A DNA stretch of 44,242 nt from positions 1 to 44,242 of the IMG/VR virus record IMGVR_UViG_3300044630_001449; one strand, given 5' to 3'. The notes under the pieces were generated by a model. That model was not told where the DNA came from and ran no database searches. It worked only from the letters and a program-made list of their open reading frames with translations. This stretch comes from a virus. Made by a program: the position numbers and the translations under genes. Positions 1 through 42,331 of the stretch are shown here, one piece after another (position 1 is the stretch's first letter; each line of letters begins with the position of its first letter).

Positions 1-92
1 CCATTAGAGAATACTTCATGCCCTAAGTCTGTTAGGAGCTGTACTTCATCATATTCTAAAATAGAATGACAACTTATGTAATGTATTTTCAT
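1..92 (-). CDS. Partial gene, putative glycosyltransferase N-terminus
   Basis: Only the first 30 codons lie in the window; the gene runs off the left edge. The start ATG overlaps the stop of the upstream glycosyltransferase gene (ATGA-type overlap), so the two are translationally coupled. The visible protein begins MKIHYISCHSILEYDE and continues with a 'LTDLGHEVFSNG' segment. That resembles the first beta strand and following helix of a Rossmann-type glycosyltransferase, and its position next to a clear GT-B enzyme supports this. No catalytic residues are visible, so the family is inferred mainly from context. Confidence 0.6.
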   Translation of the reverse strand, partial: MKIHYISCHSILEYDEVQLLTDLGHEVFSN

Positions 93-18237: not shown

Positions 18238-18656
18238 TATTGTTCACCCAATTCAATAGATACATCATAATAAGAGCATGCAGATTTTATATCTCTTCTT
18301 ACTAGTTTTTCATTATAGGAATTAACAAAGCAAGTGTATGTTTTGAAGTCTTCTGCGGGAGATATCTTTATTGAAACCGTTACTGTTCCTCTTGTATTCG
18401 CAAGGGATGATAGATAGTCTCGACCTCTTCTCCCATCAACCGTATTGTCAGTATTATTTGGAAGATATGTAAAATCTAAACTAAATGTTCTTTTATTCTT
18501 TCTAATGTATCTTCTAATTTTTCCTCTTGAAAGTTCAACATCAGATCCGGCCTGCTCAACGGATGAGTTAAACTTGCGATTATGCTCTGTAATCTCTTGT
18601 CCATTAATTGATAATAGATGGATTAGACCTGTCTGCTGGTTTTGAATTGGTGCCAT
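18237..18656 (-). CDS. Distal tail-like protein, paralogue of the downstream gene's C-terminus
   Basis: A 139-aa protein directly after the tape measure gene (1-nt overlap). It contains 'EITEHNRKFNSSVEQAG', 'KRTFSLDFTYLPNNTDNTVD', 'RRGRDYLSSLANTRG' and 'NEKLVRRDIKSACSYYDVSIE', which align with the last 135 residues of the next protein by eye. That implies a tandem duplication. Gene order (tape measure, this gene, second copy, hub) fits a tail-tip Dit ring built from two related subunits. No enzymatic motif is seen. Confidence 0.75.
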   Translation of the reverse strand: MAPIQNQQTGLIHLLSINGQEITEHNRKFNSSVEQAGSDVELSRGKIRRYIRKNKRTFSLDFTYLPNNTDNTVDGRRGRDYLSSLANTRGTVTVSIKISPAEDFKTYTCFVNSYNEKLVRRDIKSACSYYDVSIELGEQ

Positions 18657-24600: not shown

Positions 24601-27600
24601 CAACCTCAACATTATCGTCTTTCTTGCCCTTGCCGCCTAGTGTGACTTTTCCTTTTGAAGCATCAATACCGCCCTTTTTTAAACCACCAAGTTTGTTTTT
24701 GATACCCTTAGCAGATTTATCAATAAGGCCATTAACAGCACCTGTTGCTTTATCAACTGTGCTATTGACAACGCTAGTTGCTGAATCGACCATTCCTTTT
24801 GCGCCATTTACTACGCTTCTAAATTTATTATTAATACCTTTAAATTTGTCACCAATTCCAAAAGGTAGCATTGATGCGAGTTTTAATACTCCAGTTATTG
24901 GCCAAACTAGATATTCAATCATCCCTTTAGCAAGAAGGCCAATAAGGCTAACAACTCCCTTTACAAGACCACCAGCAAGGCTGACTATAACTTTAAATCC
25001 AATTGCAAAAGCATTAACAAAAAATTCAGCAGCAAAAGCTACAGCAGCCATTAAGAAAGAGAATGCTTTCTTCCAATTACCTTGGAATAGCGATACAACT
25101 GCTCCAACAATGTTTATAATCATATAAAGGTATGGCTTAATGAACTTCTCAACAATCATTTTGAAAACATTAGCTACAAACTTAAAGACTACTGCAATAC
25201 CAGAGAATGCTTTACCAAGACCTTGGACAGCACCTTCTGAGCCTTTTGCTCCGTTTCCAAAATGAGCAAACAAGTCAATAATAGGGCGGACAAGTTCAAG
25301 AACTGCATCTTTAACAGTAGTAAATGCCTCTTTAACAGTTTTAATTCCAGAAGATCCCGCTTTCTTAAAACTGTCTAGATTCTTCATTACAAGCATTACA
25401 GCAACGCCGATTGCAAGAATTATAATTCCAATACCAGAAGCGATAAGTGTTAACTTCATTATCTTCAGAGCAGCTGTCCCAAGATTTGTTGATGTTACAA
25501 AACCTTTCATCGCAGCAGACATTCTTGCAAAGAATCTTGGCGCTTCAACACCAGCAGCAGCATGCTGCATTCTTAATGCAAGCATTGCATCTTTAGCGCC
25601 TTTTACACTCTTCTTGTATCCTTCTATTGGAGCAGTTGCAAGCCCCTTGGCTGTACCGCCAAGTTCTTTTATTCTGTCGGGAGCAGCTTCTCTTGATCTT
25701 CCTACTGCTTCTGCGACTTGAGCAGCTCTTCCTTTAATTCCACCTCTGTAGATATCCGATGCTCTGTCAGCAGTAATTTCTCTGCCCTTATACATATTTT
25801 GCCCAGTGAATACATCAAGATCTAAATTTTTTCTACTAAGCGTTCTCTTGGCTAATGTTCTCTTTTCAAGAGTCTCTCTAGTATCCTCATAAGCCTGCAG
25901 AGCATCTTTCTCTCCAGTGGTCATTCTTCTAAAACGACCACTCGCTCCTCTGATACCGGCCGCTCCTGAAGTAACACCAGATGCCTGCAGAGCGACTGCC
26001 TCCTGCACCATGTCGCCTACGGACTTTGAGAATCGACCACCAGGACCTCTACCACCTGTAGTTGGATAACCTTTAGCCAACAAACTCTGTTTGATCATCT
26101 CTTCAGTTTTTCTTAGGATCTCTCTTTCATCTGCATCCATTGGCCCCATACGACCACCGGGTCCTCTTACTCCCGCAGCGCCAGACATAACCCCAGTTTT
26201 CTGAAGCTTCAAAGCAGATTTCATTTGGGATGTAAAAGAAGGTTTTGCAGCAACAGGTGCGCCAGTAATTGGGTCAATAACTGAAGTGCCAGTAATTGGA
26301 GCTAATGACTCTCTAACTGCTTTTTGAGCATTAACTTGTCTAGACAATGCCATTGGAGCAGTACTCTGCTCTTGCAATGCTCCAGTCATTAACCCAATTT
26401 TATTTGCAAGTCTGCCGACAGGGCCTTCGCCCGATGCAAGAGTTGCAAGGAATGTAGCAAACTTTCCATTTGTATTAACAACGGTATCGCCAACAACAGT
26501 TAATGGCTTAGATAGTCTAAGCATTGCTGATGAACTAGCAACAGCTTCAACTGACAATGTTTTAAGGGATGGCAAAAAGGAGAGAAGAACTTTCGCAACG
26601 CTACCCATTGCAAGTCTAAACTGACCGAAGACAAAGATAAGTGGTCCAATTGCAGCAGTTGCCCCAGCAACAAGAAGAGCAACAGTTGATATTAACTGCT
26701 TAGTTCTGCTGTCAAGACTAGACCATGCAGTAATCAACTTATTTGAAATATCTGTAATTTTTTCTATTGCAGGTCTTGCCCCTTTGATGATATCAGTAGC
26801 AAAAGCTTTAAAGTTGTTTTTAAGAATTGATATTTGTGTGTCAAGAGAACCTAATGCGACATCTAATTCTCTTTGTGCAACCTCAGCAGCGTTGGCTGCG
26901 CCTGCAAGTTGAATAAAGCTAGCTCGACCAGCTTCCGTATTAACTTGACCAATTAAGTCTACTCCTTCTGTTCTTTGAGCTTTTACAATCTCATCAGTAA
27001 CAGCTTGTCTAACTTTTCTAGCTTCTTTAACTTGCGCTAGAGTTACTCTACCAAAACCATCAATTTGCGCCGTTTCTCCCTCTTTAATCTGAGCTGTTGC
27101 AATTCTGGCAATAATTCCAATATCTTGATAACTCTTAATAAGAGGAAGGTTTGCATTAGATGACTTATTAGCCGAAATTATTGCTTGGTTTGCAAATCCT
27201 TGGAGTTTCTTTTCTGCAGACTCTAAACTTACAGTATTTGATTTAAGAACTTCATCAAAGTCTGCCATCTGAGCAAGTGCAACTTCCATTCTTGGACCTT
27301 GACGAACACCAAAAACTTTTGCAAAGAATTCCATTGCGCCTTCTTGACCCGCTGCGCTGTTCTTTAGTTCATTAAAACCATCAATAAGAGATTGAATAGC
27401 ATCAAGACCAGTACCTTTAATTGCGGTAAAGTTAGTATCATACTCTTTTGATAATCTTCTAAACAAGTCAGCATTTTGCTTTGTTGGAGCAACAAGTCTC
27501 TGCAAAGAAACTTTAATTGAGTTAGCGGATGCTCCAACTTCAAAACCAGCAGCCTTCATTGGAGCAAGCATTCCAGCAAGTTCAGTCATTGAAAGACCAA

Positions 27601-28663
27601 ATGAGGAACCAGCAGCAGCGACTTCTGGGAAAGCATCTCCCAAGTCTCTTAGAGTCAATGCAGTTACGTTTTCAACAGAGTTGAAAAGATTTAATTGAGC
27701 AGTTGCTGCGCCGATTGCAGCAATTTCTCTTTCTTCAAAGGTCATCTTTCTAGATTGACCCGACATTTGCATAGCTCGCTGAGCTTGGAAGTAAAGGCTT
27801 TGTACAAGATCTTTGGCTGCGCCAATATCCATGTCACCAAGTTTTTCAGTAACAGCAGCTAATTCAGTAATCTTTGCAATGCTCTCTTCGCTTTGGATAC
27901 CTAATTCAGCAAAGTCTCCTGCCAATCCGACTGTTAAACTCTTGGCAAGACCGAATCTATTGCTAATTTTTCCAAGAGATTTATCAAGCCTGTCATAGCG
28001 ATCAACCATTCCTTGAAGTTGCTTAGATTGCTCCTTAGTTGCCCCAACAAGGTCAACATTCATCTTCTTCGCAGCGGCCTCAAGATTTGGTGCAACATTT
28101 TCAAGAACTTTATTTAATCTTACAAATTCTTTATCAACTGACACAAGAGCTTGGAGACCGTATCTTGCAAAACCAACCATTGGGGTTGTAAGACCAATAA
28201 TAAGACTTCGACCAACGAACTGCGCATCCTTGCCAAGACGCTTCTGCTCTTGCGCTACGCTCTTTAAGTCCTCTGTAAGACCTCTTAGACGAATTCCCTT
28301 TAAAGCAGACTCATAAGCCTTAAGGTCGGAAACAGCGGCTTTTCTGAATGAGGCAGATGCTCCAGTAGCAAACTTAAACTCTGTGCCCATTCCGGCAATT
28401 TCTTTTCTTACCCTTCCAATCTCATTGGTAAGAACAGAGTTGTTTCTAGAAAGTTGATCAATTGTTTTAGCGTGAGCTTTTAATGATGAGTCAGCAGAGC
28501 CTACAGCAGCAGAGAGAGCCTTGCTTCTTGCGCTAAGGTTGTTCATTGGGGCTACAGAACCCCTTACAACAGCATTGAGCTGTTGCATAGCATTGCTAAG
28601 CTTATAAACATCCGCTACGCCCGCAGTCGCTACGGCAATTACAATATCTACATCACTAGCCAT
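18656..28663 (-). CDS. Giant tape measure protein with muralytic, ART-like and kinase-like domains
   Basis: At 3335 aa this is about a quarter of the window. Residues 1-700 are the TP901-type tape measure core ('KAAGFEVGASANSIKVSLQRL'). Hydrophobic stretches lie near 655-690, 1066-1090 and 1170-1270. A long coiled coil spans about 1400-1570 and a Gly/Ser linker about 1684-1718. The 'LHGGEYVV' element occurs near 1846 and 3238. Residues about 1925-2015 resemble the Rpf/transglycosylase-like fold (predicted catalytic E1945). Residues about 2700-2915 resemble an R-S-E ADP-ribosyltransferase: R2824, T2860-S2861-S2862, E2903-x-E2905. Residues about 2960-3100 resemble a PI3K/HipA-like kinase: K2974, D3053, D3060-N3061, D3074. 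The core role is setting tail length; the extra domains suggest delivery of effectors. The ribosome binding site is AAGAGG. Confidence 0.93.
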   Translation of the reverse strand: MASDVDIVIAVATAGVADVYKLSNAMQQLNAVVRGSVAPMNNLSARSKALSAAVGSADSSLKAHAKTIDQLSRNNSVLTNEIGRVRKEIAGMGTEFKFATGASASFRKAAVSDLKAYESALKGIRLRGLTEDLKSVAQEQKRLGKDAQFVGRSLIIGLTTPMVGFARYGLQALVSVDKEFVRLNKVLENVAPNLEAAAKKMNVDLVGATKEQSKQLQGMVDRYDRLDKSLGKISNRFGLAKSLTVGLAGDFAELGIQSEESIAKITELAAVTEKLGDMDIGAAKDLVQSLYFQAQRAMQMSGQSRKMTFEEREIAAIGAATAQLNLFNSVENVTALTLRDLGDAFPEVAAAGSSFGLSMTELAGMLAPMKAAGFEVGASANSIKVSLQRLVAPTKQNADLFRRLSKEYDTNFTAIKGTGLDAIQSLIDGFNELKNSAAGQEGAMEFFAKVFGVRQGPRMEVALAQMADFDEVLKSNTVSLESAEKKLQGFANQAIISANKSSNANLPLIKSYQDIGIIARIATAQIKEGETAQIDGFGRVTLAQVKEARKVRQAVTDEIVKAQRTEGVDLIGQVNTEAGRASFIQLAGAANAAEVAQRELDVALGSLDTQISILKNNFKAFATDIIKGARPAIEKITDISNKLITAWSSLDSRTKQLISTVALLVAGATAAIGPLIFVFGQFRLAMGSVAKVLLSFLPSLKTLSVEAVASSSAMLRLSKPLTVVGDTVVNTNGKFATFLATLASGEGPVGRLANKIGLMTGALQEQSTAPMALSRQVNAQKAVRESLAPITGTSVIDPITGAPVAAKPSFTSQMKSALKLQKTGVMSGAAGVRGPGGRMGPMDADEREILRKTEEMIKQSLLAKGYPTTGGRGPGGRFSKSVGDMVQEAVALQASGVTSGAAGIRGASGRFRRMTTGEKDALQAYEDTRETLEKRTLAKRTLSRKNLDLDVFTGQNMYKGREITADRASDIYRGGIKGRAAQVAEAVGRSREAAPDRIKELGGTAKGLATAPIEGYKKSVKGAKDAMLALRMQHAAAGVEAPRFFARMSAAMKGFVTSTNLGTAALKIMKLTLIASGIGIIILAIGVAVMLVMKNLDSFKKAGSSGIKTVKEAFTTVKDAVLELVRPIIDLFAHFGNGAKGSEGAVQGLGKAFSGIAVVFKFVANVFKMIVEKFIKPYLYMIINIVGAVVSLFQGNWKKAFSFLMAAVAFAAEFFVNAFAIGFKVIVSLAGGLVKGVVSLIGLLAKGMIEYLVWPITGVLKLASMLPFGIGDKFKGINNKFRSVVNGAKGMVDSATSVVNSTVDKATGAVNGLIDKSAKGIKNKLGGLKKGGIDASKGKVTLGGKGKKDDNVEVDTDPMQEQIANATGEGLSEGADEGAKELAKRAAQALKDIKKEVQEEIASRIKDAMTAVVDSITNSLKDQKEASLSIYDAQIKKIEDVAKAEEKLTKEQEYQNKLREAEEQRALNRLNTRRNYAMAVYAGQIDEARAIADAGARQDTEDTKSIGVIRDERVKELAEENRKVMIDSIKEAKENASKYFDEMIKSFTEAAKKITQFPPTTAEEFNTMLNQLIDGGNGFVGAKSIANSMGTIFSESFGGALGQLGVNASGPLTSSLAAIGKTLTENNPFGPTGIWSKTIDASIDALTRKYTGLSQTLTTVIDTNSEAFSKLLTTYTAYQDIVNPAGAGGSSSSGGSGGGGTGAGGSGAGAGGTGTGGGTGNETGFNNLKKGKVTPNQLARVMFANYRNADRNLLVDYLTDAFTIFTKPPVDSSANKFKKFLTENPAIKQTKNSRILTMVRNAYNTGSRSEGYDGYKLYEMGGMLPYSKGGPTEGPVQQGIPAILHGGEYVVRNSAVNKYGWGMMQQINQGTYKPRPFANGGMIDSFAKGGAIKKPKKMVTGGKSKAPEKAPDKKIKEDPAQAEWNWQQNNGGFTEAYMDTIAKGESSQGKNWGKKPDWFGRVETSHGWMGGGMRTADKTWFDYGGSEFAKTADLATKLQQMVVKNRIAIFGWIRKVAAGSPGFPAGATISNPPLGTGEHAFNRDLLLKLERVTFKGKPEKLKKYRSPEKEFPLPENFNPNMSYINQVGYDPFKNFGSDKGAFNTKTSKDAYVNYFRNKPRGFNKITMPFSKPVWIDGFGNRVREPKNARNFDNFGAYSPLIQEPVQSFSFLDNILGFAKGGLVGKAVGKKIAKPKTPEKPKTPSAADFRKADYLSDWDMQVIGVNAKKQMAEQKKGLFGKIKSAVAKPFVAAKNWVSNQFYSNLYGSQTGSGMTGSAVMLNRATNPNYETVGPRPSMLDLPSVRAGATMAKTGTQFLPIAGAFFPLADAANLYNENPSGGSRVLSGLEAAGSLIGPTSIFSPYANFSQGSKLLNTVRSIKSLPKNIKSGTRSFINNRSTITKVKSLLRDIDDARKGATKFPAWQDQVLGGPRKSMDQLNQSLPDPLFDDGPFGSIEGLTPYKRITNSRYPNIFKEISGERAPTRALGVDGWLDIPGKTPWETVKNRIQETKNLNINRFKNLNTRFKNTISKKPKIGNKLKSLPPKAKAIPKTLKDRLFEFLVPKSATILGSEGISSVVREMFYTGQYDDIMKNSILNGLSQRFPTMDMPELTKLTDIMFGNIKRISPENPAQIAETMRFNAKRVAEFEAKLAANASRSPEDALAYKTYMTNKLRAKITGNIAKSAQGRTGGFKRGMFKQGDLSFEDFMKNIVPKMDESELTKIAGGTHRDDFKIYLSYMNSLLNSPMTYQSGTKYYQDLLAQISGRSEVTDLQKAFPILKEFVNASIAGNVRLGPRINFADNFDLAKAIEIFGVKTEKDLEFVRGMNIMNTGGLKATLSRLVDVDPKIGEMLPHQTPLRTSSSPAGALGFFSRGTPDQTRGALFNITVPKGTPAYVDPKFLHETELLFPGFNFLENIRKPISAPSGASLFSTRAGFSISPTNFNFDNLTRVGEQLGSNRAGIWRDPAGIKYYIKEAKSVAHSWNEELAARLYESFGVASGQQRAVFDSSTNTPYLISQIIEDLKPIGEFDDLAIRLPRIKEGFAIDAWLGNYDAIGYNMDNLMLDALGNPIRIDPGASMFYRGTGGLKDAIPGIKFGEEVEELTQMVKPTDAHKSFQNAGKIFGDMTFVQLQDAARRLQLLPSGITSDTAMSSSFSNLLMKMIQASIPDQALAQKYFDILMARRKNILEHFGLQVPDDPGAISGSAHGWFNGGLISRANGGMIPGFGSQGVPAMLHGGEYVVNSSAVKNVGIAALQALNNMRFNTPKSPSYSGPVNGQSTSTSTTHIYVENFIGEKQWFESMMKDYNVTVAPQNQKAAGLNNTTISTYSGINRGL

Positions 28664-32559: not shown

Positions 32560-32850
32560 TCAAAACCACCAAAAATGTTTTAATATCGATAAACTTGCCA
32601 AAACCACCCAAGCGACATTGAAAAGGATGATTGTTGGAAGGGTCTTGTGTGTTGAAGTCCAAATAAGAGCAACGCTGGAAATGATGGCGAAAATATATAA
32701 CCACCAAAATTGCTTGCCGAGAAGAAGACCCGGAAAGATAATTGCAATCTTGGTAGCAAAGCCCCAAGCCTCTACTGTGTTAACACTTGTCCAGTATGAG
32801 CGATTACTCATAGTCTTGACAGCATTAATTATTTTTTGAAAAAATTCCAT
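32560..32850 (-). CDS. Small membrane protein
   Basis: A 96-aa protein with two or three predicted membrane helices: 'GFATKIAIIFPGLLLG', 'FWWLYIFAIISSVALIWTST' and 'TIILFNVAWVVLASLSIL'. A charged N-terminal segment precedes them. No family is recognised. It closes the halogenase block and overlaps the end of the upstream gene by 22 nt. Possible roles include an anchor or transporter for the pathway or an extra lysis or exclusion factor; none is demonstrated. Confidence 0.7.
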   Translation of the reverse strand: MEFFQKIINAVKTMSNRSYWTSVNTVEAWGFATKIAIIFPGLLLGKQFWWLYIFAIISSVALIWTSTHKTLPTIILFNVAWVVLASLSILKHFWWF

Positions 32851-33629
32851 CTTCTTTTCTTTTCTGCTTCTTCATCGTTCTGCATTCTAAGTTTTCTGTA
32901 AAGTTGAGCATTATCTGCTGCCGCTAAATTACCTTCACCCATACCATTACCAATATGGAATCGAGCCATGCTTTCATTACCGAAAACGATTTTTTTAGTA
33001 TTCTCGCTTCTTTTAATTGGAATCATATGCTGCATTGGTGTCCCTGCGGGGATAGTGAACTCTTTATCCGTTAGTACGGATATAACAATATGAATTTGAT
33101 TATAGAAATCGGAATGAACAATACCCGGCATTACAGCATAATTTGGGTTTGGCTCATGAAGAACAGGTAAAGCCATTAAAGAAATACCTTTTGGCGTAAA
33201 AAACCTCCAAGGACTAACGAATTTTGGATAGGTAAATTTTTCTAATTTTCTATTCTCACCAAAAGGACAACCTTCAGCACTCTCAGCTTGAAATCCTTCT
33301 ACACGAAAAGAATAATCATCGCCAAAATTATTTAGTTTGTATTCAAAACCCTTACCTGAAGCGTCAGGCCGGACTGTAACATCTGTCCACATGGGAATGA
33401 TAAAACCATACTGTAAGTAGTCAAAGGTTCCATTACATCTTCTTAAAGACATACTCTTGACTGGAAGTTTTTTCCACCAAGAAGGAAGTTGCTCTTGGCA
33501 AATATATGGAGCGACTTCCAGTATGCGGTTGTCGTTTGGAACAATCACAACTTCATTTTTTTTTGGTTTAGGAGTATCTCCTTTAAACATTGAAATTTTA
33601 TAATTGTATTTCTTTGAGCGATTTCGCAT
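32829..33629 (-). CDS. Conserved phage protein of unknown function (cyanophage-like type)
   Basis: A 266-aa soluble protein. Recognisable phrases are 'YGFIIPMWTDVTVRP', 'YPKFVSPWRFFTPKGISLMALPVLH', 'PGIVHSDFY' and 'IPAGTPMQHMIPIKRS'. The last, an I-P-A-G-T-P-x-x-x-x-I-P-x-K-R stretch, recalls a group of uncharacterised proteins I know from marine cyanophages and possibly the DUF6065 group; that link is from memory and tentative. The fold looks all-beta and cupin-like. The C-terminus is highly charged ('EEAEKKRRWNFFKK'). The start overlaps the halogenase end by 32 nt, so it is probably a partner in the same process. Confidence 0.75.
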   Translation of the reverse strand: MRNRSKKYNYKISMFKGDTPKPKKNEVVIVPNDNRILEVAPYICQEQLPSWWKKLPVKSMSLRRCNGTFDYLQYGFIIPMWTDVTVRPDASGKGFEYKLNNFGDDYSFRVEGFQAESAEGCPFGENRKLEKFTYPKFVSPWRFFTPKGISLMALPVLHEPNPNYAVMPGIVHSDFYNQIHIVISVLTDKEFTIPAGTPMQHMIPIKRSENTKKIVFGNESMARFHIGNGMGEGNLAAADNAQLYRKLRMQNDEEAEKKRRWNFFKK

Positions 33630-35061
33630 GGTCTACCTTTGCATGATCTGATTGTCTTATTTTAGCAGAATACATAGAGTTTTTTACAGCATCTCTGATG
33701 TTAAATCGATTTATAGCAAGCGAAGAGGCCTCTCTAGATAAGATCTTTTGACCTTGGGCTACATGATAAAAATGTGGAACATGAAACATTTCATAATTAC
33801 TTGTTGGTATGTCATTATGGAATGGAGGTCTTTCGCTCCACAAATCTAGTAAGTTTTGCAAATATTCTGGAACCGGTGTATTCGCTTGGTTTATCCACAT
33901 TTCAGTATCTCTTCTGTCAGACATGTAGTGGAGATAAATCATGGACAGAATATTTTCCATCATTATATTCATTTTCTTATTGAATTCATTCTGGACAGCC
34001 GTATATCCAATCTTGTAAGAGGACAAATTTTCCACCAAACACCTCATTTGTTGAATTGTACCTCCAATAGAGGATGCTTCAATTGGCTCAACAAAAGCAG
34101 AAGATAGGCCGATTGCAGCGCAGTTCTTCACCCACATCTTTTCGAGATGACCGGGGTCAAATTTAATAGTCTTTACTGGTTGAACCTCAAATCCAAGCAA
34201 CGCTGACACTTCAGCAATTGCTTGATCATCAGTGCAAAAGTTTGTGGAATAAACATAACCATTACCTCTTCTTTGCTGAGTTGGGATTTCCCAAACCCAT
34301 CCGTTCTGAATAGCCCTAGCTCTTGTGTAGGGTCTAATCTCCCCAGAAGGATCAGGTTGTGTAGGGAAAGGAATTGCCGAGTTCATCTGAAGATGGTTGG
34401 AGAAAGACTTCCACTTAGCATCACTCACCTTTGATATAAGAATACGAGCCATCCCTGATGCGTCAATCCAAAAATCAGCCTCAAGACTTTCATCATTTTC
34501 AAGTATAACTGATTCAATATGCCCATCTTCGATGTTTAAATTTGTTTTAATTATTTTGCTATCAATGAAGCAAATATTTCTTTCTTGACATAATTTTGTT
34601 AAATACTTGTTGAGAAGAGCAGTATCAAAATGATATTGGTTCACAGATTCATGGGGTCTATCAGCACGAACTTTGTTTTCTATCATTGCTCTTGATGCAA
34701 TATTTTCAGTCAATGTTTTATTATTTTCAATAAGGCCATTGTATAAACCGTAAAAATTGTAATAGCCAATGGTGCTTGCATCGCTTACACTGTGGAAGTA
34801 GTCAGGGGTATGATTTGTCCAATTTTCAAATCTAATACCGTTTTTATGGGTTGCTTGTGTTTCATTTAAAAGTTCCCCAAGGGGGATGTTGCATGCATCC
34901 ATAAACATTCTCCAATGTTCTGTTGACCCCTCACCGACACCAATAATTCCGACTTGAGATGATGAAACCACTGTGATATCCATCAAGGGGAAAGCTGAGC
35001 GTAACATTATTGCACCAACTAAACCAGCGGTGCCACTGCCAACTATTGTTATTTTGTTCAT
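33598..35061 (-). CDS. Flavin-dependent halogenase, tryptophan halogenase type
   Basis: A 487-aa FAD enzyme expected to place chlorine, bromine or iodine on an electron-rich ring using reduced FAD, oxygen and halide. The N-terminal dinucleotide motif is 'IVGSGTAGLVGA'. 'GVGEGSTEHWR' follows, then the catalytic lysine K73 in 'ATHKNGIRFENW'. The halogenase-specific W-x-W-x-I-P motif is 'WVWEIP' (255-260). The catalytic glutamate region is 'FVEPIEASSI' (E328 aligned with PrnA E346); the following serine of PrnA is alanine here (A329). Length and motifs argue for an active enzyme. A flavin reductase would have to come from the host, as none is seen. Substrate unknown: free tryptophan, a peptide or a smaller aromatic are all possible. 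Confidence 0.93.
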   Translation of the reverse strand: MNKITIVGSGTAGLVGAIMLRSAFPLMDITVVSSSQVGIIGVGEGSTEHWRMFMDACNIPLGELLNETQATHKNGIRFENWTNHTPDYFHSVSDASTIGYYNFYGLYNGLIENNKTLTENIASRAMIENKVRADRPHESVNQYHFDTALLNKYLTKLCQERNICFIDSKIIKTNLNIEDGHIESVILENDESLEADFWIDASGMARILISKVSDAKWKSFSNHLQMNSAIPFPTQPDPSGEIRPYTRARAIQNGWVWEIPTQQRRGNGYVYSTNFCTDDQAIAEVSALLGFEVQPVKTIKFDPGHLEKMWVKNCAAIGLSSAFVEPIEASSIGGTIQQMRCLVENLSSYKIGYTAVQNEFNKKMNIMMENILSMIYLHYMSDRRDTEMWINQANTPVPEYLQNLLDLWSERPPFHNDIPTSNYEMFHVPHFYHVAQGQKILSREASSLAINRFNIRDAVKNSMYSAKIRQSDHAKVDHAKSLKEIQL

Positions 35062-35078
35062 TTTTAATACCTATATTT

Positions 35079-36128
35079 CTAATTAATTTTATTATACAAA
35101 TCAATTAATTTTTCAATTTCTTCATTTGGATGAAGCGCAAAATAATCTATGACTTCTTGATAATTATTAAAATCTATACCATGCATAACGCAAAATTCAA
35201 AAATTTTTGAGGCAAGACCTTCTTTTTCTTTTGCAATAAGATCATTAGGTATTGCAAAACCATTTATATGACTATTCTTCATATTAAATAAATATGAATA
35301 CTTGCATCTATTATTAATAAATTTTTTCAGAGAGTCTGGTGTCTGTGTGTTTTCGTCTATATCATATACCTGTCTAGTTTCACCTTTAAGGTATCTGGCA
35401 ACCTTCATATCCCCCTGTGAATTGATAATATCGGCTAAAACATCTTCTGGCATCCCAATCTCATTCAGAAAATCATATGCAGCCTTAGCAATTGGCTCTT
35501 GGTTACTAAATGGAGGCTTATATACCTCAGACCATTCATAAATGGTTTTTAAAGCACCGGTAAGAGTCCTTGCGTTTGCGTTTGCTCCTTGAGAGTCTTT
35601 ATTAGGATTTTCTGTGTTATCTGTGAATGTGCATAAAAGATGACCGACCCCTGCAATATCCATAAGACTTGCCGTTCTTTTTATTGAAAGTCTGTTTGGG
35701 AGTAAATAAAATGGCTTAACACCGAGCATTCCGTAATCACATCTTACAAAACTATCTGGAATAAAATTGTAGGCGAGTGACTGATTATCTCTCGCTGGAA
35801 CTACCGATGAGTCTAGAAATGAGTAAACTACGAAAAATTCATCTATTTGTCTATCAAAATGCTCTTGAAAAGACTCATAAGATATGTTTTGAAAATTCTT
35901 TTTTTCTAACCCAGAAAAATATACATAATTATGGACTCCTGAATGAAATTTCTTAAAAGCAATAAGGGTTCCTACTTCTGTTGAAAATGTATCATAATCA
36001 TTTGCATCAATATCAACTAACCCAATTGATGTATTAAACTTGAGAATAATATCGCCATCTTCTTCTGTGAGAAAGTATGATGTGTATAAAATTGGTTCGA
36101 TTTCAGAAATATTTTTCATACGAACCAT
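35079..36128 (-). CDS. Unknown protein of the halogenase block
   Basis: A 349-aa protein that I do not recognise. The N-terminal half is beta-rich with many aromatics ('GVHNYVYFSGLEKKNF', 'VVYSFLDSSVVPARDN', 'VKPFYLLPNRLSIKR'). The C-terminal half is helical ('PIAKAAYDFLNEIGMPEDVLA', 'SLKKFINNRCKYSYLFNMKNS', 'NEEIEKLIDLYNKIN'). There is no cofactor motif, signal peptide or membrane segment. It lies 17 nt upstream of the halogenase gene and overlaps the dioxygenase stop by 13 nt, so it probably belongs to the same pathway, perhaps as a substrate-binding or carrier protein. An ATG three codons in is an alternative start. Confidence 0.8.
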   Translation of the reverse strand: MVRMKNISEIEPILYTSYFLTEEDGDIILKFNTSIGLVDIDANDYDTFSTEVGTLIAFKKFHSGVHNYVYFSGLEKKNFQNISYESFQEHFDRQIDEFFVVYSFLDSSVVPARDNQSLAYNFIPDSFVRCDYGMLGVKPFYLLPNRLSIKRTASLMDIAGVGHLLCTFTDNTENPNKDSQGANANARTLTGALKTIYEWSEVYKPPFSNQEPIAKAAYDFLNEIGMPEDVLADIINSQGDMKVARYLKGETRQVYDIDENTQTPDSLKKFINNRCKYSYLFNMKNSHINGFAIPNDLIAKEKEGLASKIFEFCVMHGIDFNNYQEVIDYFALHPNEEIEKLIDLYNKIN

Positions 36129-36715
36129 GTTACCAGACTGTACTTTACACCGCTTTTTACAGGGTGAGCTATGTGAGTGTAAGGAAAATTAGAAGGGAAA
36201 AGCACTAATGAGTTTTTATCTAATTTTATTGTTAAATCAAAATTATTAAACTCCAATTCTCCGCCGTCAAAATCATCACCAAGACAGGCAACTAGACTCA
36301 ACACTCTCCCATTCTTGGATGAATGATCATGATGAATGTGATATTCCCCTCCATCAATATATTTTAAAAGATGATAACCAGAATCTGCATTGAGATTTAA
36401 ATCAAAGCACTCTCTGTAATCCCAAATACATTCATCAATTTTAGAAAAAATATCTTCAATAAATAAATTTTGAAGACTCTTTAGATCTTCATTAATCGTG
36501 TCGGAAAAAAAGGGATCCATTGGCATCTCAAGAGATGTTCTATATTCACTAATTTTTGTCTGCTCACCATCTCCGGTGTTTGAATAAAACCAATCAATCA
36601 ATGGCCATTCTTTTTGTGTTTCTTTTTCAATCAATTCACAAAAATTTTTACTATCAAAAACATTTTTATAAACCCAAATACAGGGTGCTTTTTCTTCTTT
36701 TTCAATTGACAACAA
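36116..36715 (-). CDS. 2-oxoglutarate/Fe(II)-dependent dioxygenase
   Basis: A 199-aa enzyme of the prolyl-4-hydroxylase-like superfamily that would hydroxylate a substrate using iron, oxygen and 2-oxoglutarate. The facial triad is visible: H128 and D130 in 'EYHIHHDHSS', and H181 in 'YTHIAHPVKSGVKYSLVTW', where K191 replaces the usual arginine for 2-oxoglutarate. The core strand 'DFDGGELEF' is typical. No signal or membrane segment is present. It overlaps both neighbours by about 13 nt. Small phage dioxygenases of this kind modify nucleic acids, proteins or small molecules; location beside the halogenase suggests a shared substrate, which is inference. Confidence 0.88.
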   Translation of the reverse strand: MLSIEKEEKAPCIWVYKNVFDSKNFCELIEKETQKEWPLIDWFYSNTGDGEQTKISEYRTSLEMPMDPFFSDTINEDLKSLQNLFIEDIFSKIDECIWDYRECFDLNLNADSGYHLLKYIDGGEYHIHHDHSSKNGRVLSLVACLGDDFDGGELEFNNFDLTIKLDKNSLVLFPSNFPYTHIAHPVKSGVKYSLVTWFV

Positions 36716-37103
36716 AAGAAAACTCCTCTTCTACTTTTTCATCAACAATTATCTTACAAGAATAATTGCCATACTCTTTGCAAATATATACAAATTTTGC
36801 AATATGAGATTCTTCATACACTGGTTTAACTAACTCATTGTTAATAAATAAATTAATTTTATTCTTTATAATAATAAAGTCATTCTTATATTTAATACTT
36901 TGATGGAATCCTTTTTTAACAGAGTTTAAGAGCATAGCGCCTTTGTGCTCAGGTATTGAAACAACAGACACTTTTTCTCTATTAAATTCCAAATTTTTTG
37001 TGTAATCATTATCGCCAACAATTATTTGTAAATAATTTTTCTTAGCAAGAATGGCGGACTCTTCTAGAAACTCATCTGATGGACAATATATGACCCTATA
37101 CAT
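36702..37103 (-). CDS. Unknown protein upstream of the dioxygenase
   Basis: A 133-aa protein starting MYRVIYCPSDEFLEE. I chose this ATG because it lies one base after the upstream stop; an in-frame ATG at 37154 would overlap that gene by 50 nt. The middle has 'VSVVSIPEHKGAMLLNSVKKGFHQS' and the end alternates strands ('KFVYICKEYGNYSCKIIVDEKVEEEFSF'), consistent with an Ig- or jelly-roll-like C-terminal domain. There is no recognised motif. Base composition is visibly more AT-rich than in the structural genes, as it is across 35079-37338. Confidence 0.7.
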   Translation of the reverse strand: MYRVIYCPSDEFLEESAILAKKNYLQIIVGDNDYTKNLEFNREKVSVVSIPEHKGAMLLNSVKKGFHQSIKYKNDFIIIKNKINLFINNELVKPVYEESHIAKFVYICKEYGNYSCKIIVDEKVEEEFSFVVN

Positions 37104-37104
37104 A

Positions 37105-37338
37105 TTACTGAATCGAATCAATAATTCTTTGAATGTTTGCCATTTTTTCCGCAAGTGAGATTATGTTGGCATATGAAGAAACTTGAACTGGGTCCGTAAT
37201 TTCTGAAACATTAGGCGCTACAAAGGTTTCTGGGTCTTCCCCTAGGATAACAACTTCTCGATAATAGTGCATTTCTAGTGTGCCTAAGGCATGTTGAGCC
37301 ATTTCTATCTTTTTTTCATTTGAAAGTGTAAATTCCAT
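37105..37338 (-). CDS. Small helical protein of unknown function
   Basis: A 77-aa protein. It is mostly helical: 'SNEKKIEMAQHALGTLEMHYYREVVILG', then an acidic and proline-containing loop, then 'SYANIISLAEKMANIQRIIDSI'. It resembles the short helical proteins that follow adhesin genes in marine phages, possibly fibre chaperones, but I cannot name it. It starts 8 nt after the stop of the large adhesin gene and is followed after 1 nt by the next gene. Confidence 0.7.
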   Translation of the reverse strand: MEFTLSNEKKIEMAQHALGTLEMHYYREVVILGEDPETFVAPNVSEITDPVQVSSYANIISLAEKMANIQRIIDSIQ

Positions 37339-37346
37339 AAATCCTC

Positions 37347-39353
37347 TTATTGGTTTAATATAGTTAGTACAGTGCCTGATTGACCTGTGCCACCACCAGA
37401 TACAGTACCACCAGTTGCTGATGTCACTACTGTATTAGCGATTAAATCTGTAATAATAATTATACCACCACCACCGCCAGTTATACCACTACCGCCAGCT
37501 GTTGAAGAACCTGCTGCTCCACCAGCACCTCCGGGGTATGTGTTACTGCCTTGTGAGGAGATAGTCCCTGCATTCCTAGCTCTAAAGTGAGAGTGGTTGT
37601 TGTCAACATGGTGTCTAGGGTAATTGCGATGACCATGAGATGCGGGGATATGGTGCTTACCGTCACCGATGGCAGGTTCATGAAAGCTGTGATGAGGGAC
37701 ATCATGGGTTTGATTAAATTGCCCGCTGTAATGAGTATATTCAAATGTAAAAGCAATACCACTATGATTCCTGTGACTGTGATTATGAGGAATGCCGTTA
37801 ATAGCGAAGTATGTTCCTGTCAAACCATTAACATGAGGCGTATCATTAAAATCCCCGTAGTGGTGTGCGAAAGGGGGGTTATGTGTTCCATGATCTGCAT
37901 GCCAGTCTCCATAAACATTATTATGAGTATGATGAGTATTTCCTTGATGAACATATCGGTATGTGTAACCATGTAATCTGTTTTGTGTATATGGGACATG
38001 ACCACCATGAGGGACATTTGGTGCTGATACAGAGGCATGAGGACCGCTTGTTCCATCACCAGTTATGTAGTGAGCTGAGCCATCACTTAGATGAGTCAGT
38101 GTTGCAGTAGGAGCGGTGTTTCCAACATTACCAGTTGAGCTACTTGCTCCAACATTTGCATTTTGTCCTTGAGATAAAATCACTCCAGAACCAATGACTT
38201 GCTTAGCAACAATAAGGACAACCGCACCTCCAGCACCTCCAGCACCTCCAGCAGATGCAGGTGGAGCCGTTCCAGGACCTCCAGAGCCACCAGGAACTAG
38301 GGCATTTCTTAAAAGAGTTCCTGGACTGCCAGCCCCTCCTGGGGTTATAGTTCCGCTTGCCCCTGTTGCTCCGGCAGCACCCCCCTTGATTGAGGTAATT
38401 AGCCCAGAGGAATTAAATGCTATACCAGAAATAAGAAATTCAAGATTTGAACTATCGGATGCTGAAATTTGAGAAGCAATAAATGTATTTCCACCTGAAT
38501 TACCGCCAATAGAAACGCTTGTATTACCAGAACCAGATGCTAAACGACCAGCAAGAGTACCAGCAGAAACGGCTTGTGAAGATGTTACTCCAATATTTCC
38601 ATTAAGGGTTAAAGTATTTTTTACAAAAACTTTAAATCCATTTGTATTTAAATGAGAACCACTATTGATTGTAAGATTGTTATAATACATATCTCTAGTA
38701 AGAGATGTATTTGAGGCAATTACAACGGTGCCATCTTGACCGCCCCCATAAACAGAATCATTACCGATTCTTTGAACTGATGCCGATGGCTCAACAGAGA
38801 ACATTCTTACTGGCCTAACTGACATATTGTTAGATATTGACTTATCCTCAGGATAAGCTGAGCCATCAGACCAGTAGACAGCATAGGCATTGCTGGCATC
38901 ATACTCCGAGGAGGTGGTGTACGAATTAGTATTCCAGCCAGAAATATTGGCTGTTTTTAACTTATAGAACTCCAATACTTCATTGAGGGATGGCAAAAAC
39001 CAGTCGACAAAACCACCACCCCGGTATGATTGAGCCAAAGCTGCAGCTGAATTCGCTGTATCAACATTTCCTTGATTTATTATGTCAATAGTGTTTTGAT
39101 AACCAGTGCCAATGTTTAAACCATCAGCACCCGCAACCGCCGTTGTTCTATAGTCAACTGGTGAAGACTGAGCCCATCTTCTTATCGGATCACCAACACC
39201 ACCATTCCACTTGTAAGGAGCAACTTCAAAATATTTCCCAGTAGAGTTTCCTTCAGTTGAGGGGGTAATGAAGATAATTCCACCACCGGGACCAATATCA
39301 CCAATTGCAAATGTTCTTAATGTTTTAGTACTATATCTTTCTATGCCAGTCAT
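37347..39353 (-). CDS. Adhesin / tail fibre with DUF1566-like, glycine-rich and histidine-rich regions
   Basis: A 668-aa protein. Residues about 15-185 resemble the DUF1566/Lcl C-type lectin-like fold ('GDIGPGGGIIFITPS', 'GGGFVDWFLPSLNEVLEFYK', 'NMSVRPVRMF'). Residues about 199-265 repeat a module found in the next protein ('YGGGQDGTVVIASNTSLTRD', 'VFVKNTLTLNGNIGV'). Residues about 320-385 are Gly/Ala/Pro-rich. Residues about 430-590 hold roughly 32 histidines, many as HxH or HH ('HHTHNNVYGDWHADHGTHN', 'PHNHSHRNHS'). The end is Gly-rich again. The arrangement fits a host-binding fibre tip with a metal-stabilised shaft. It is the last fibre gene before the halogenase block. Confidence 0.8.
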   Translation of the reverse strand: MTGIERYSTKTLRTFAIGDIGPGGGIIFITPSTEGNSTGKYFEVAPYKWNGGVGDPIRRWAQSSPVDYRTTAVAGADGLNIGTGYQNTIDIINQGNVDTANSAAALAQSYRGGGFVDWFLPSLNEVLEFYKLKTANISGWNTNSYTTSSEYDASNAYAVYWSDGSAYPEDKSISNNMSVRPVRMFSVEPSASVQRIGNDSVYGGGQDGTVVIASNTSLTRDMYYNNLTINSGSHLNTNGFKVFVKNTLTLNGNIGVTSSQAVSAGTLAGRLASGSGNTSVSIGGNSGGNTFIASQISASDSSNLEFLISGIAFNSSGLITSIKGGAAGATGASGTITPGGAGSPGTLLRNALVPGGSGGPGTAPPASAGGAGGAGGAVVLIVAKQVIGSGVILSQGQNANVGASSSTGNVGNTAPTATLTHLSDGSAHYITGDGTSGPHASVSAPNVPHGGHVPYTQNRLHGYTYRYVHQGNTHHTHNNVYGDWHADHGTHNPPFAHHYGDFNDTPHVNGLTGTYFAINGIPHNHSHRNHSGIAFTFEYTHYSGQFNQTHDVPHHSFHEPAIGDGKHHIPASHGHRNYPRHHVDNNHSHFRARNAGTISSQGSNTYPGGAGGAAGSSTAGGSGITGGGGGIIIITDLIANTVVTSATGGTVSGGGTGQSGTVLTILNQ

Positions 39354-39354
39354 A

Positions 39355-40104
39355 TTAAACCAATTGAGAGTATATCACTGTACCATTAGCACAACCTGTA
39401 CCACCTGTAACATCAGTTGTAAGACCTGATGGTAGTGCTACGCTACTGGAGACAACAATAATTACTCCACCGCCTCCTCCACCACTACCAGCCAAGCCAG
39501 CAGCGTCAAAATAAGATGTAGCAGTTGCAGAGATATAACGAGATGCAATAATTAAAACTCCACCACCTGCACCGCTAGAACCACCTGCACCACCTCTTAA
39601 GAACAGTGGTGTTGTATTACTTGCATTGAGAACATATCCTTTTACAGATTGAGTTGGTTGATACCAGTAACCAGTAAGTGTTGCTGAGTTTGCCAAGTCT
39701 GGTTTCACACCAGTGCCTCCTTGTGCAACGGTTGGAGGAGTTGCAGTTTGAGATGCGCTGTTACCGCCAAGACTATTGGTAACAGCCGTGTTGGTAGCAC
39801 CGCCTCCTGAGATCGTTCCAGTTCCTGAGAAGCCAGTTGTCATCGTGTAGTTATTCGCCGTTCCAACTCCGATAGTGGAGTTGGAGTTAAGGGTTAAAAG
39901 GTTCTTTACGAAAACTCTATAACCAGCAGTGTTTAAAACAACATTAGAGTTGACAGTAAGATTGTAATAAAACTTATCAGTCGTCAATGTTGTATTAGCA
40001 GAAATTGTTACTGTCCCATCAGAGCCAGTTCCGTAAATTGGGTCTGGGGAATCGATGAATGATCCGAAAGCGTTTAAAGCAGGGAACCTAGATATACCGG
40101 CCAT
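39355..40104 (-). CDS. Glycine-rich fibre protein
   Basis: A 249-aa structural protein. Residues about 20-80 carry the beta module 'YGTGSDGTVTISANTTLTTD ... VFVKNLLTLN' shared with the next gene. After it come Gly-rich segments 'GGAGGSSGAGGGVLIIASRY' and 'GLAGSGGGGGGVIIVVSSS', which resemble the polyglycine-helix sandwiches of phage adhesin tips. There are no enzymatic motifs. The ribosome binding site is GAGGAG and the start overlaps the upstream stop by 1 nt. Confidence 0.75.
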   Translation of the reverse strand: MAGISRFPALNAFGSFIDSPDPIYGTGSDGTVTISANTTLTTDKFYYNLTVNSNVVLNTAGYRVFVKNLLTLNSNSTIGVGTANNYTMTTGFSGTGTISGGGATNTAVTNSLGGNSASQTATPPTVAQGGTGVKPDLANSATLTGYWYQPTQSVKGYVLNASNTTPLFLRGGAGGSSGAGGGVLIIASRYISATATSYFDAAGLAGSGGGGGGVIIVVSSSVALPSGLTTDVTGGTGCANGTVIYSQLV

Positions 40105-40463
40105 TATGACTCCTCAACTCCAAAAATTGTCACATTCAATGCAGAGTTCGCAGAGCATAGGAATGTAATCTGATCGCTATTTGTGCTATTAGCAGTGCTT
40201 CCATTATTAATTAAGACCATCGAGCAGTTGAAAGAAAGAGTTTCATTAGCATTAATAGTAACATTGCTTAAGATATCGTGAGTATTAGCCTCAGCAACAT
40301 TGAGGGGTTTTAAACGGATTGTTGCAGTTCTTGCAGATGCTGTTGTATTTGTAATAAGAATTTGTTTAACTATTGTAGTTGTATTAAGAGGGACAGTATA
40401 AGCAACAGCAGTAACTGTTGATATTTGTGTTGGGCCAGCTAATCTTTTCTGAATTACAGCCAT
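40104..40463 (-). CDS. Small beta-sandwich virion protein
   Basis: A 119-aa protein with regular alternating strands ('QISTVTAVAYTVPLNTTTIVKQ', 'RTATIRLKPLNVAEANTHDI', 'NALNVTIFGVEES'). This looks like a compact beta sandwich, probably a small virion decoration or fibre-linker protein. It is embedded in the fibre gene run with a GGAGG ribosome binding site and 1-nt overlaps at both ends. No family is recognised. Confidence 0.7.
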   Translation of the reverse strand: MAVIQKRLAGPTQISTVTAVAYTVPLNTTTIVKQILITNTTASARTATIRLKPLNVAEANTHDILSNVTINANETLSFNCSMVLINNGSTANSTNSDQITFLCSANSALNVTIFGVEES

Positions 40464-41221
40464 TATATAACCTCCATATAGAATCTGATCATGTTGTCAC
40501 GAACAGTATTTCTATTTACCCATAAACTACCATTATATTCTAAAATCTGTCCTGATGCTGGAGTTGTGATGGAAACATCGTGTAGTTCATCTAATTCATA
40601 CCCATTTTGAGTTGCTACATAGATTATTCCATTATTGGTAGCACGAACTACAACTCCAATAAAAACAAGGTGTTCGGGAGCAGAAGGTTTTGTTTTCGTA
40701 AACGCACCATCCTCCCCAAGCCAAAGAACATCACCTGCTGTATACCCAGTAGAAAGATCTATACCGTCAACATATCCTCTTGTAACAACCGGTCCATTTT
40801 CACTGGCTGCAATATTTGCGCCAATGACCCCAACTGTCTTTGAAGATGTTGCATCTGAATCATTATCCGCTCTCTTAACTGTCGCATGATCCCCCGTAGC
40901 TCCAAATAGATATACGCATGTACCGGTTGTTAAGGTGTTTGATTCTGCATTACGGACATATGATACAACAGGGGAATAATTATTTACCCAGTTAGTTCCA
41001 TTGTACTGTAGAGTTTGAAACTCTTCTGGTGTTGTTATTACAGTATCAGATAAACCATCTAGATCAATAGATGTGCTACCTCCAAACTCCACAATTGTGT
41101 TTGATGCATTCTTATAATAAAGTTTTCCATCAGCATAGTTAAGACCCAACTCACCGAATTCAAGGGAAGAGGGGACATTAGAAGCGGTACCTGAATTTTT
41201 AATTTTAATGGTATTAGCCAT
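40463..41221 (-). CDS. Tail fibre protein with shared N-terminal attachment module
   Basis: A 252-aa fibre. It begins 'MANTIKIKNSGTASNVPSSL', then 'ELGLNYADGKLYYKN', the same plan as the upstream fibre. Repeats of the type 'TTPEEFQTLQYNGTNWVNN' and 'TTPASGQILEYNGSLWVNR' flank a central domain (about 85-215; 'TGTCVYLFGATGDHATVKRA', 'GYTAGDVLWLGEDG'), which is common in marine phage fibres. It ends with a short beta segment. The ribosome binding site is GGAGG. Confidence 0.82.
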   Translation of the reverse strand: MANTIKIKNSGTASNVPSSLEFGELGLNYADGKLYYKNASNTIVEFGGSTSIDLDGLSDTVITTPEEFQTLQYNGTNWVNNYSPVVSYVRNAESNTLTTGTCVYLFGATGDHATVKRADNDSDATSSKTVGVIGANIAASENGPVVTRGYVDGIDLSTGYTAGDVLWLGEDGAFTKTKPSAPEHLVFIGVVVRATNNGIIYVATQNGYELDELHDVSITTPASGQILEYNGSLWVNRNTVRDNMIRFYMEVI

Positions 41222-41233
41222 TACTTCCTCCTA

Positions 41234-42331
41234 TTAGAAAGTACCGCCATCTACTGTATCACTCCAAGAAGGTACTCCAGCGACAACCTTCAAGAATTGA
41301 CCTGTTGTTCCAATTCCAAGTTTAGAAAGAGTATTCCCAGATGAAGAATAGATTAAGTCACCAGTTGTATATGAAGTTAATCCAGTACCACCAGATGTTG
41401 AAGCGATGGCTGTGCCATTCCATACACCAGTTACAATAGTGCCAAGTGTGGTCAAACTTGAGTATATGACTCCTGACCCTAAAGTTGTATTTGAAAGAAC
41501 TGAAGTTCCACCAATTTGGAATACCTTTCCAGCAAGAAGATTGAGATTCTCTGATGAAGTCCATGCATCTGTCGCATCAACCCAGTTAAATGTCTTTGTA
41601 GTTGCGCCAAGAACGGAAATACCAGCACCATCTGCCGTTGTGTCTGTCGGTGTAGCGACATTTGCAAGAACAACATTCTTATCCTCAACAACCAAAGTTG
41701 CGGTATTAAGAGTTGTTGTATTCCCATTAACAATCAAATCTCCTGTAACGGTAAGTGTATTTCCAATTGTTATATCATCTGGAAGACCAATTGTTACAGC
41801 ACCAGTCCAAGGACCAGTGCCAGTGCCAGAGACAGTAACTTCATTTGATGTTCCTGTGACTGATGTAACGGTAGCTGTTCCAAGATCGCTAATTTGTGAA
41901 CCAGTAATTGAAATCGTTGTATTACCAGCAGCAGTTAGACGACCATCTCCCTGTACAGTGAATGTAGCAACAGTGTTTGCACTGCCATAAGAGCCGACTG
42001 TGACTGCGGTATTGCCAAGAGTAACTCCAGCAATTGCATTGTCAACATAAAGTTTTGTTGCAGCATGAGTGTTTGCTGTTGGAGTAGGTACAAGAACAAG
42101 ACCATTGAAAGTCTTATTTCCTGATACTGTTTGAACACCAGAGAGGGTCAAATATGCGCCTGCACCACCAATTGCCTCTACTGTTGTAGCAGTGCCTCCT
42201 GCACCGCCTGAACCTTTACCGTAGTAAAGAACATCATCTACTTCGTTATATGCAAGCTCTGCATTCTCTAACGAACCTGGAGCCCCAGCATTACCGGAGC
42301 CTCTTCTTTTAATTCTAATTGTATTTGCCAT
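41234..42331 (-). CDS. Tail fibre protein
   Basis: A 365-aa fibre with N-terminal module 'MANTIRIKRRGSGNAGAPGS' and 'ELAYNEVDDVLYYGKG', a collar-type repeat 'TPTANTHAATKLYVDNAIAG', and long Thr/Val/Gly-rich beta-helix-like repeats ('TIGNTLTVTGDLIVNGNTTT'). These are hallmarks of trimeric phage tail fibres. There is no catalytic or S74 domain. It is preceded by GGAGG after a 12-nt gap downstream of the previous gene's stop region and overlaps the upstream stop by 1 nt. Confidence 0.82.
   Translation of the reverse strand: MANTIRIKRRGSGNAGAPGSLENAELAYNEVDDVLYYGKGSGGAGGTATTVEAIGGAGAYLTLSGVQTVSGNKTFNGLVLVPTPTANTHAATKLYVDNAIAGVTLGNTAVTVGSYGSANTVATFTVQGDGRLTAAGNTTISITGSQISDLGTATVTSVTGTSNEVTVSGTGTGPWTGAVTIGLPDDITIGNTLTVTGDLIVNGNTTTLNTATLVVEDKNVVLANVATPTDTTADGAGISVLGATTKTFNWVDATDAWTSSENLNLLAGKVFQIGGTSVLSNTTLGSGVIYSSLTTLGTIVTGVWNGTAIASTSGGTGLTSYTTGDLIYSSSGNTLSKLGIGTTGQFLKVVAGVPSWSDTVDGGTF

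Follow-up and report, generated by a model that had tools for sequence, protein, structure and literature searches.

Background

Flavin-dependent halogenases (FDHs) are widespread in phages, being present in 20 of 153 cyanophages (PMC10452541), and the roles suggested for them so far, namely antibiotic protection, secondary metabolites and altered host metabolites, are speculative. As for comparable chemistry on peptides and proteins, the FDHs VhaA and MibH halogenate a peptide only after its hydroxylation (PMC12615548), halogenated His and Tyr including 5-bromohistidine are reported from sponge skeletons (PMC8659048), and worm jaws made with a His/Gly-rich protein, which binds Zn, are described as encased in halogenated protein (PMC13120676). 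Moreover, the Gly-rich adhesins of hafunaviruses are reported host-range determinants (PMC8651126). Herein we analyse IMGVR_UViG_3300044630_001449, a single fragment of 44,242 bases from a virus of lake bacteria (the whole of this stretch is called the window), in which a halogenase gene stands in a tight block of genes downstream of a Gly-rich adhesin.

Our results point to this block as a post-translational modification cassette for the receptor-binding tail tip, a reading to which we give a probability of about 0.62; the association of the genes is a direct observation, from which we infer the chemistry and the substrate. The initial annotation had suggested that seven genes are a candidate pathway modifying one substrate stepwise, and offered a peptide, a tail adhesin or a host signal molecule for that substrate. 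Among these three, gene context now speaks clearly for the tail adhesin, because in nearly every relative the unit immediately follows a His-rich Gly-rich adhesin, and because the FDH and 2-oxoglutarate (2OG) oxygenase units of several marine cyanophages also adjoin Gly-rich adhesins.

The gene block and its conservation

The seven open reading frames (ORFs) first described are all present on the minus strand from 37338 to 32560 in the order given, with the overlaps claimed for them found to be 14, 13, 32 and 22 nt, and with a 17-nt gap between the 349-aa gene and the halogenase gene. As first drawn, however, the block is too short at its upstream end, where the His-rich adhesin, which lies directly upstream and was overlooked, belongs to it; at the downstream end it is probably too long, since the membrane gene is a doubtful member, found in only 18 of 32 loci and at varying positions. 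In the following, HAL or FDH denotes the halogenase, P266, P349 and P150 the proteins of 266, 349 and 150 aa, FIB a tail fibre and GLY the Gly-rich adhesins. From upstream to downstream the features are:

41234..42331, minus strand: tail-fibre-like protein, 365 aa, first upstream fibre gene (PHROG virion structural and tail-fibre matches; cluster recurs upstream in relatives)
40463..41221, minus strand: tail-fibre-like protein, 252 aa (phrog_9729 tail fiber, E 1e-9; position conserved)
40104..40463, minus strand: c119, a conserved small protein of 119 aa ahead of the adhesins (84 copies in 72 loci; position)
39355..40104, minus strand: shorter paralogue of the Gly-rich adhesin, 249 aa, not His-rich (His never above 4 per 100 aa among 101 members)
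37347..39353, minus strand: long Gly-rich adhesin-like protein, 668 aa, proposed substrate (Gly-rich flanks, variable His-rich insert)
37560..38096, minus strand: variable His-rich insert of this adhesin, residues 420-598 (33 His, 11 Tyr, 1 Trp)
37105..37338, minus strand: 77-aa protein, probably helical, candidate tail-fibre chaperone (ORF; slot)
37154 (TTG start, 150 aa) or 37103 (ATG start, 133 aa) to 36702, minus strand: P150, cassette protein (family A3)
36116..36715, minus strand: 2OG-Fe(II) oxygenase, 199 aa, candidate peptidyl hydroxylase (PF13640)
35079..36128, minus strand: P349, 349 aa, with an immunoglobulin (Ig)-like N-terminal domain and a mainly helical C-terminal part (AlphaFold2; variable slot)
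33598..35061, minus strand: flavin-dependent halogenase, 487 aa (PF04820)
32829..33629, minus strand: P266, 266-aa protein of dUTPase fold, probably no dUTPase (phrog_7084; partner of halogenase/adhesin loci)
32560..32850, minus strand: 96-aa membrane protein, loosely linked (hydrophobic segments)

With the halogenase as query, IMG/VR yielded 76 loci, in which ORFs were called and all proteins clustered, and dereplication (90% halogenase identity and full flanks) left 32. Most of the 76 loci have the order FIB - c119 - GLY (short) - GLY (long, His-rich) - 77 aa - P150 - 2OG - P349 or c9 - HAL - P266, an arrangement whose recurrence across dozens of contigs puts it well beyond chance. In the 32 loci the adhesin, P266 and the 2OG oxygenase are each found 30 times, P150 24 times, the membrane protein 18 times and P349 11 times. 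The middle gene is present in 24 of the 32 loci, being P349 in 11, c9 (about 235 aa) in 13 and both together in none, and P349 is an exchangeable slot gene; that P349 and c9 are distant homologues in one slot was rejected, as profile comparison showed no relation. The slot of the 77-aa gene is occupied in most relatives by genes of 75-80 aa. Two loci, L068 and L069, are without the usual partners and have their own Gly-rich adhesin upstream of the FDH.

Since this first search was seeded by the halogenase, reverse searches were also made, the best 80 relatives being kept in each locus search, beyond which distant adhesins without halogenase may exist. With P266 as seed the halogenase is present in 54 of 54 distinct loci, and with the short Gly-rich protein in 52 of 60, where the other eight contigs stop inside or soon after the adhesin. 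Independent occurrence in relatives was the outcome that the initial annotation had named as refuting its reading; within the clade of the window the cassette genes are not found independently of one another, and a chance assembly of unrelated genes is ruled out by co-occurrence conserved in both search directions. The idea of a modification unit stands to this extent; it does not hold for all seven genes as one pathway, with P349 swapped for c9, the membrane gene loose, and a relative of P266 lying near an adhesin without a halogenase. Among phage isolates, tblastn found no matches to P349, P150, c9 or the short adhesin, the last being a weak negative as BLAST masks low complexity.

The remaining window carries tail fibre, tail, connector, helicase, primase and DNA polymerase genes, which places the block among the structural genes of a tailed phage. 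By far the longest ORF of the window (3335 aa, 18656-28663, minus strand) is in the tail gene region. Besides, a glycosyltransferase-like gene (92-1171, minus strand; phrog_2170, E 2e-27) abuts the DNA polymerase gene.

The His-rich adhesin

In addition to the residues listed above, the insert of the window adhesin contains five HxH motifs within its 179 aa, and across relatives the inserts have on average 19% His, 17% Gly, 9% Pro, 9% Asn, 4% Tyr and 0.7% Trp. Of the 106 distinct copies of the long adhesin, 93 have a density of 15 His or more per 100 aa, while the short paralogue next door never has more than 4 in its 101 copies, c119 has at most 3 in 104 copies, and no further annotated family in the relatives reaches 15. 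The insert is 45-79% identical between the window and four relatives, a strong variation such as would be expected of a receptor-binding segment. Features of gp38-type adhesins are present, with Gly-rich segments bordering variable loops and tail-fibre genes upstream; this architecture and context, together with the hafunavirus precedent, suggest that the adhesin binds a receptor. The long adhesins of the window, L018 and L013 have an extra N-terminal Lcl_C-like domain (PF07603) in their first ~190 residues, for which the match of the window adhesin is below cutoff, and which is absent from L007 and most relatives shown; the N-terminus is therefore modular. To obtain Gly-rich adhesins without halogenase for comparison, the adhesins of L068 and of the hafunavirus HF2 were used as seeds and gave only three loci each, so this comparison relies on HF2 and the paralogue that is not His-rich.

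The halogenase and its relatives

The presence of two oxidative enzymes, as stated at first, agrees with Pfam. The halogenase matches PF04820 with E 3.6e-103, its residues 3-448 covering positions 1-452 of the 458 in the profile, and in alignment A4 it keeps the GxGxxG motif (G8/G10/G13), the WxWxIP motif (W255-x-W257-x-I-P260), an invariant K73, and E328. The last two correspond to the catalytic K79 and E346 of PrnA. By sequence, the closest solved structure is PDB 6frl (BrvH type; E 1e-58), compared with 4.8e-48 for PrnA and 1e-39 for the cyanophage halogenase VirX1. The gene is hence predicted to encode a halogenase of PF04820 dependent on reduced flavin adenine dinucleotide (FADH2). It is about 23% identical to VirX1, and in the maximum-likelihood tree the window clade (14 rows, 100/99) stands apart from the VirX1 branch, with cyanophage FDHs of the P-SSM2 type, which are not linked to tail genes, and bacterial FDHs between the two; membership of the VirX1 clade is accordingly ruled out.

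The association recurs in unrelated phage lineages. In cyanophage Syn10, CPUG_00131 is VirX1 itself, matching PDB 6qgm across all 530 residues; it is the second of two tandem halogenases, which tail-fibre proteins (phrog_863, E 6e-63 and 5e-67) precede, and right after it comes a P266 homologue (phrog_7084, E 1.8e-71). Downstream of that homologue (L245:24083-30174), 8 of 10 genes match 2OG-Fe(II)/JmjC families, three of them weakly, which is an unusually dense array. S-CREM1 has the order collagen-like protein - FDH - 'triphosphate nucleotidohydrolase' - eight 2OG genes and JmjC, and its collagen-like protein has His-rich Gly loops; P-TIM40, S-RIM44 and S-WAM1 agree with Syn10 in outline. When the Syn10 adhesin was used as seed in viral contigs, a halogenase was just downstream in every distinct locus except one, which is at a contig end. 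In S-SRM01 the FDH lies between the tail-fibre region and an 'adhesin tip complex' protein (L254:9494-10582), whose Trp/Cys-rich stretch, with several Trp within about 40 residues, is a natural candidate for tryptophan halogenation. As the tail-linked FDHs fall in separate tree branches, the linkage of FDH and adhesin probably arose more than once, by independent recruitment.

Among the loci of 80 bacterial FDH relatives, a P266 homologue was found in none and a 2OG partner almost never, and these relatives were rejected as the source of the cassette on the former count. Such a link of halogenase and adhesin may exist in bacteria too. In a metagenome-assembled genome of Pluralibacter (L401:1-7485) an FDH about 33% identical directly follows a giant Ig-repeat adhesin-like protein, and in Acinetobacter piscicola (L323:231-7479) one of about the same identity, 33%, follows four related surface-protein-like genes.

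The oxygenase and the partner proteins

The 199-aa oxygenase matches PF13640 with E 6.6e-14, and among 90 homologues the HxD motif and the distal His of the iron triad are kept in 97% and 98%, and the 2OG-binding Lys in 86%. The 77-aa protein has no significant Pfam or PHROG match; nor has P150, for which Pfam finds none across 34 members of family A3, and whose 133-aa ATG start is common to most homologues and leaves no overlap with the 77-aa gene.

P266 was called cyanophage-like, rightly, since it belongs to phrog_7084 (E 6.3e-28), which occurs in cyanophages too. It also gives a weak dUTPase signal, and it stands immediately after HAL in 50 of 57 clusters. Its AlphaFold2 model has a mean confidence (predicted local distance difference test, pLDDT) of 83.3, and Foldseek gives dUTPases as best matches (E 1.7e-4), with 37 matches at E <= 0.001; among the 50 matches listed all are dUTPases but one dCTP deaminase, and the TM-score by target is 0.44-0.72. 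Motif 3 of dUTPases reads GVIDxDYRG. Its catalytic Asp is replaced in 40 of 40 homologues, by His in 25 and Asn in 15, and the next Gly is lost too; a dUTPase role is therefore unlikely, and P266 was rejected as a working dUTPase despite its fold. In HF2, a P266 homologue (E 1e-17) is two genes away from a Gly-rich protein with 0.6% His, and no halogenase is among the annotations of the region, for which reason P266 may serve the adhesin instead of the halogenase. Another homologue, in cyanophage S-RIM4 (L244:8325-9119), sits by ribonucleotide reductase genes with no annotated halogenase nearby, so that part of this dUTPase-fold family may do something else.

P349 matches no Pfam or PHROG family. 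In its AlphaFold2 model (pLDDT 82.7), the Ig-like domain at residues 14-87 gave the only VIA-align matches (best Z 4.8, 71 aligned residues, root-mean-square deviation 3.0), while Foldseek found nothing in the PDB at E <= 0.001 (best 0.093), and the part beyond this domain was matched by none of these searches; BFVD holds three uncharacterised relatives from uncultured phages.

Proposed mechanism and rival explanations

If the block is a modification cassette, then the 2OG/Fe(II) oxygenase or oxygenases would, while the late genes are expressed, hydroxylate side chains of the hypervariable insert of the adhesin, and the FADH2-dependent halogenase would halogenate side chains of the same aromatic-rich insert; hydroxylation may come before halogenation, as for VhaA and MibH (PMC12615548). 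The targets would be His, with Tyr or Trp as well or instead. His is the sole susceptible residue that is abundant in nearly all inserts of the window clade, and that it specifically is halogenated is a possibility we regard with some doubt. P266, the 133/150-aa protein and the 77-aa protein would be helpers in adhesin folding or substrate presentation, and the outcome might be a chemically tuned adhesin tip, with effects on metal coordination, stability or receptor affinity. More widely, we suggest tentatively, at somewhat less than even odds, that halogenation and hydroxylation of adhesins, with encoded His- or Trp-rich hypervariable loops as substrates, evolved independently in tailed phages from freshwater and from the sea, which would also give phage halogenases, VirX1 among them, a native substrate.

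Several observations weigh against the modification of the adhesin. In L068 and L069 the adhesin beside the FDH is not His-rich, which means that His-richness is not required, and P266 is missing; the adhesins of S-WAM1 and S-RIM44 are less His-rich as well. In S-PM2, Syn1, S-MbCM6, P-SSM2, S-SSM7 and S-B64 the FDHs are away from tail genes, so the linkage with adhesins is not general among cyanophages, and P266 relatives exist without a nearby halogenase in HF2 and S-RIM4. Two close relatives keep 27 and 28 of the 33 insert His, against insert averages of 74% and 79%, so these residues appear to be conserved only slightly above their surroundings. Moreover, His-rich adhesins without FDH were sought among close relatives only, and the linkage of these genes in one late operon might come from shared expression timing and not from the substrate.

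This last point is at the root of an unlikely alternative, in which what the enzymes produce or decorate during infection is a diffusible metabolite or a surface sugar, and their genes are merely carried in a late operon behind the adhesin. Precedents are at hand: a cyanophage halogenase cluster with carbamoyltransferases has been read as secondary-metabolite or capsule decoration (PMC7824862), a context of which type the S-SSM7 halogenase also has, cyanophage prnA has been read as antibiotic protection (PMC2984593), and the title of the VirX1 paper, as cited in PMC10452541, speaks of the iodination of diverse substrates. However, partners of the former type (carbamoyltransferase, methylase, phosphatase) are absent among the block genes and annotated neighbours, the window cassette is without enzymes for scaffold building, transport or sugars, its fixed partners are the adhesin and P266, and the linkage of adhesin and FDH recurs across separate FDH branches.

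The composition of the insert could also be explained by a metal-loaded tip, with the enzymes acting elsewhere or just protecting or tuning it, an explanation we consider less probable still. It would fit the mean His content and the HxH motifs given above, the existing literature on iron-binding tail fibres, the metal binding proposed for His sites of other phage fibres, and the Zn binding of His/Gly-rich worm-jaw proteins (PMC13120676), yet it leaves the near-obligate linkage with FDH and 2OG genes unexplained. Least probable, and by a good deal improbable in itself, is that the enzymes act on another virion protein, such as FIB or the c119 product, or on a host surface molecule; the upstream FIB and c119 genes are conserved too, but c119 has no unusual His content, and the marine cassettes share the Gly-rich adhesin type, while FIB and c119 were not identified there.

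With the adhesin as the proposed substrate, the cassette points to a concrete neighbouring protein for viral halogenases, and their native substrate therefore becomes testable by virion mass spectrometry. If the reading is true, halogenation and hydroxylation join the chemistry that phages apply to host-recognition machinery, adhesins may owe part of their variation to chemistry as well as to sequence, and biocatalysis gains a set of candidate enzymes for halogenating proteins and hydroxylating peptides. Modification of phage virion proteins by known enzyme families is of a known kind, while virion halogenation would be categorically new. No report of halogenase-based modification of an adhesin or tail fibre was found in the literature, subscription papers and preprints being outside the coverage.

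Comparison with known systems

BrvH-type bacterial halogenases (6frl), of the tryptophan halogenase superfamily, give the top structure match to the window FDH, but theirs is a cellular gene. MibH, SrpI, MppI and VhaA, the FDHs of ribosomally synthesized and post-translationally modified peptides (RiPPs) and of nonribosomal peptides, are alike in working on a peptide residue; they differ in that our proposal has a large adhesin of the virion as the substrate, and in that the cassette is without leader peptide or protease, and without a RiPP class enzyme in the Pfam and PHROG scans of the block. Judged by its gene content, the cassette would work like a RiPP system, yet it is not a RiPP biosynthetic cluster. 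The adhesins of T-even phages (gp38) and of HF2 share the Gly-rich scaffold with hypervariable segments, whereas that of HF2, with its low His content, has nothing like the ~180-aa His-rich insert of the window and no halogenase annotated near; the HF2 adhesin was rejected as a homologue of the window adhesin, as the profile match is weak and composition-biased, and we therefore claim resemblance rather than homology. The Nereis jaw protein Nvjp-1 is a Gly-/His-rich structural protein too, but it is an animal protein, not homologous, and an analogy only.

VirX1 differs in its surroundings: Syn10 encodes a pair of FDHs along with about eight 2OG/JmjC proteins, against one of each in the window. 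Its likeness to the window FDH lies in being a phage halogenase of PF04820 with the catalytic residues kept, a P266 homologue next to it, tail-fibre and adhesin genes ahead and 2OG oxygenases near.

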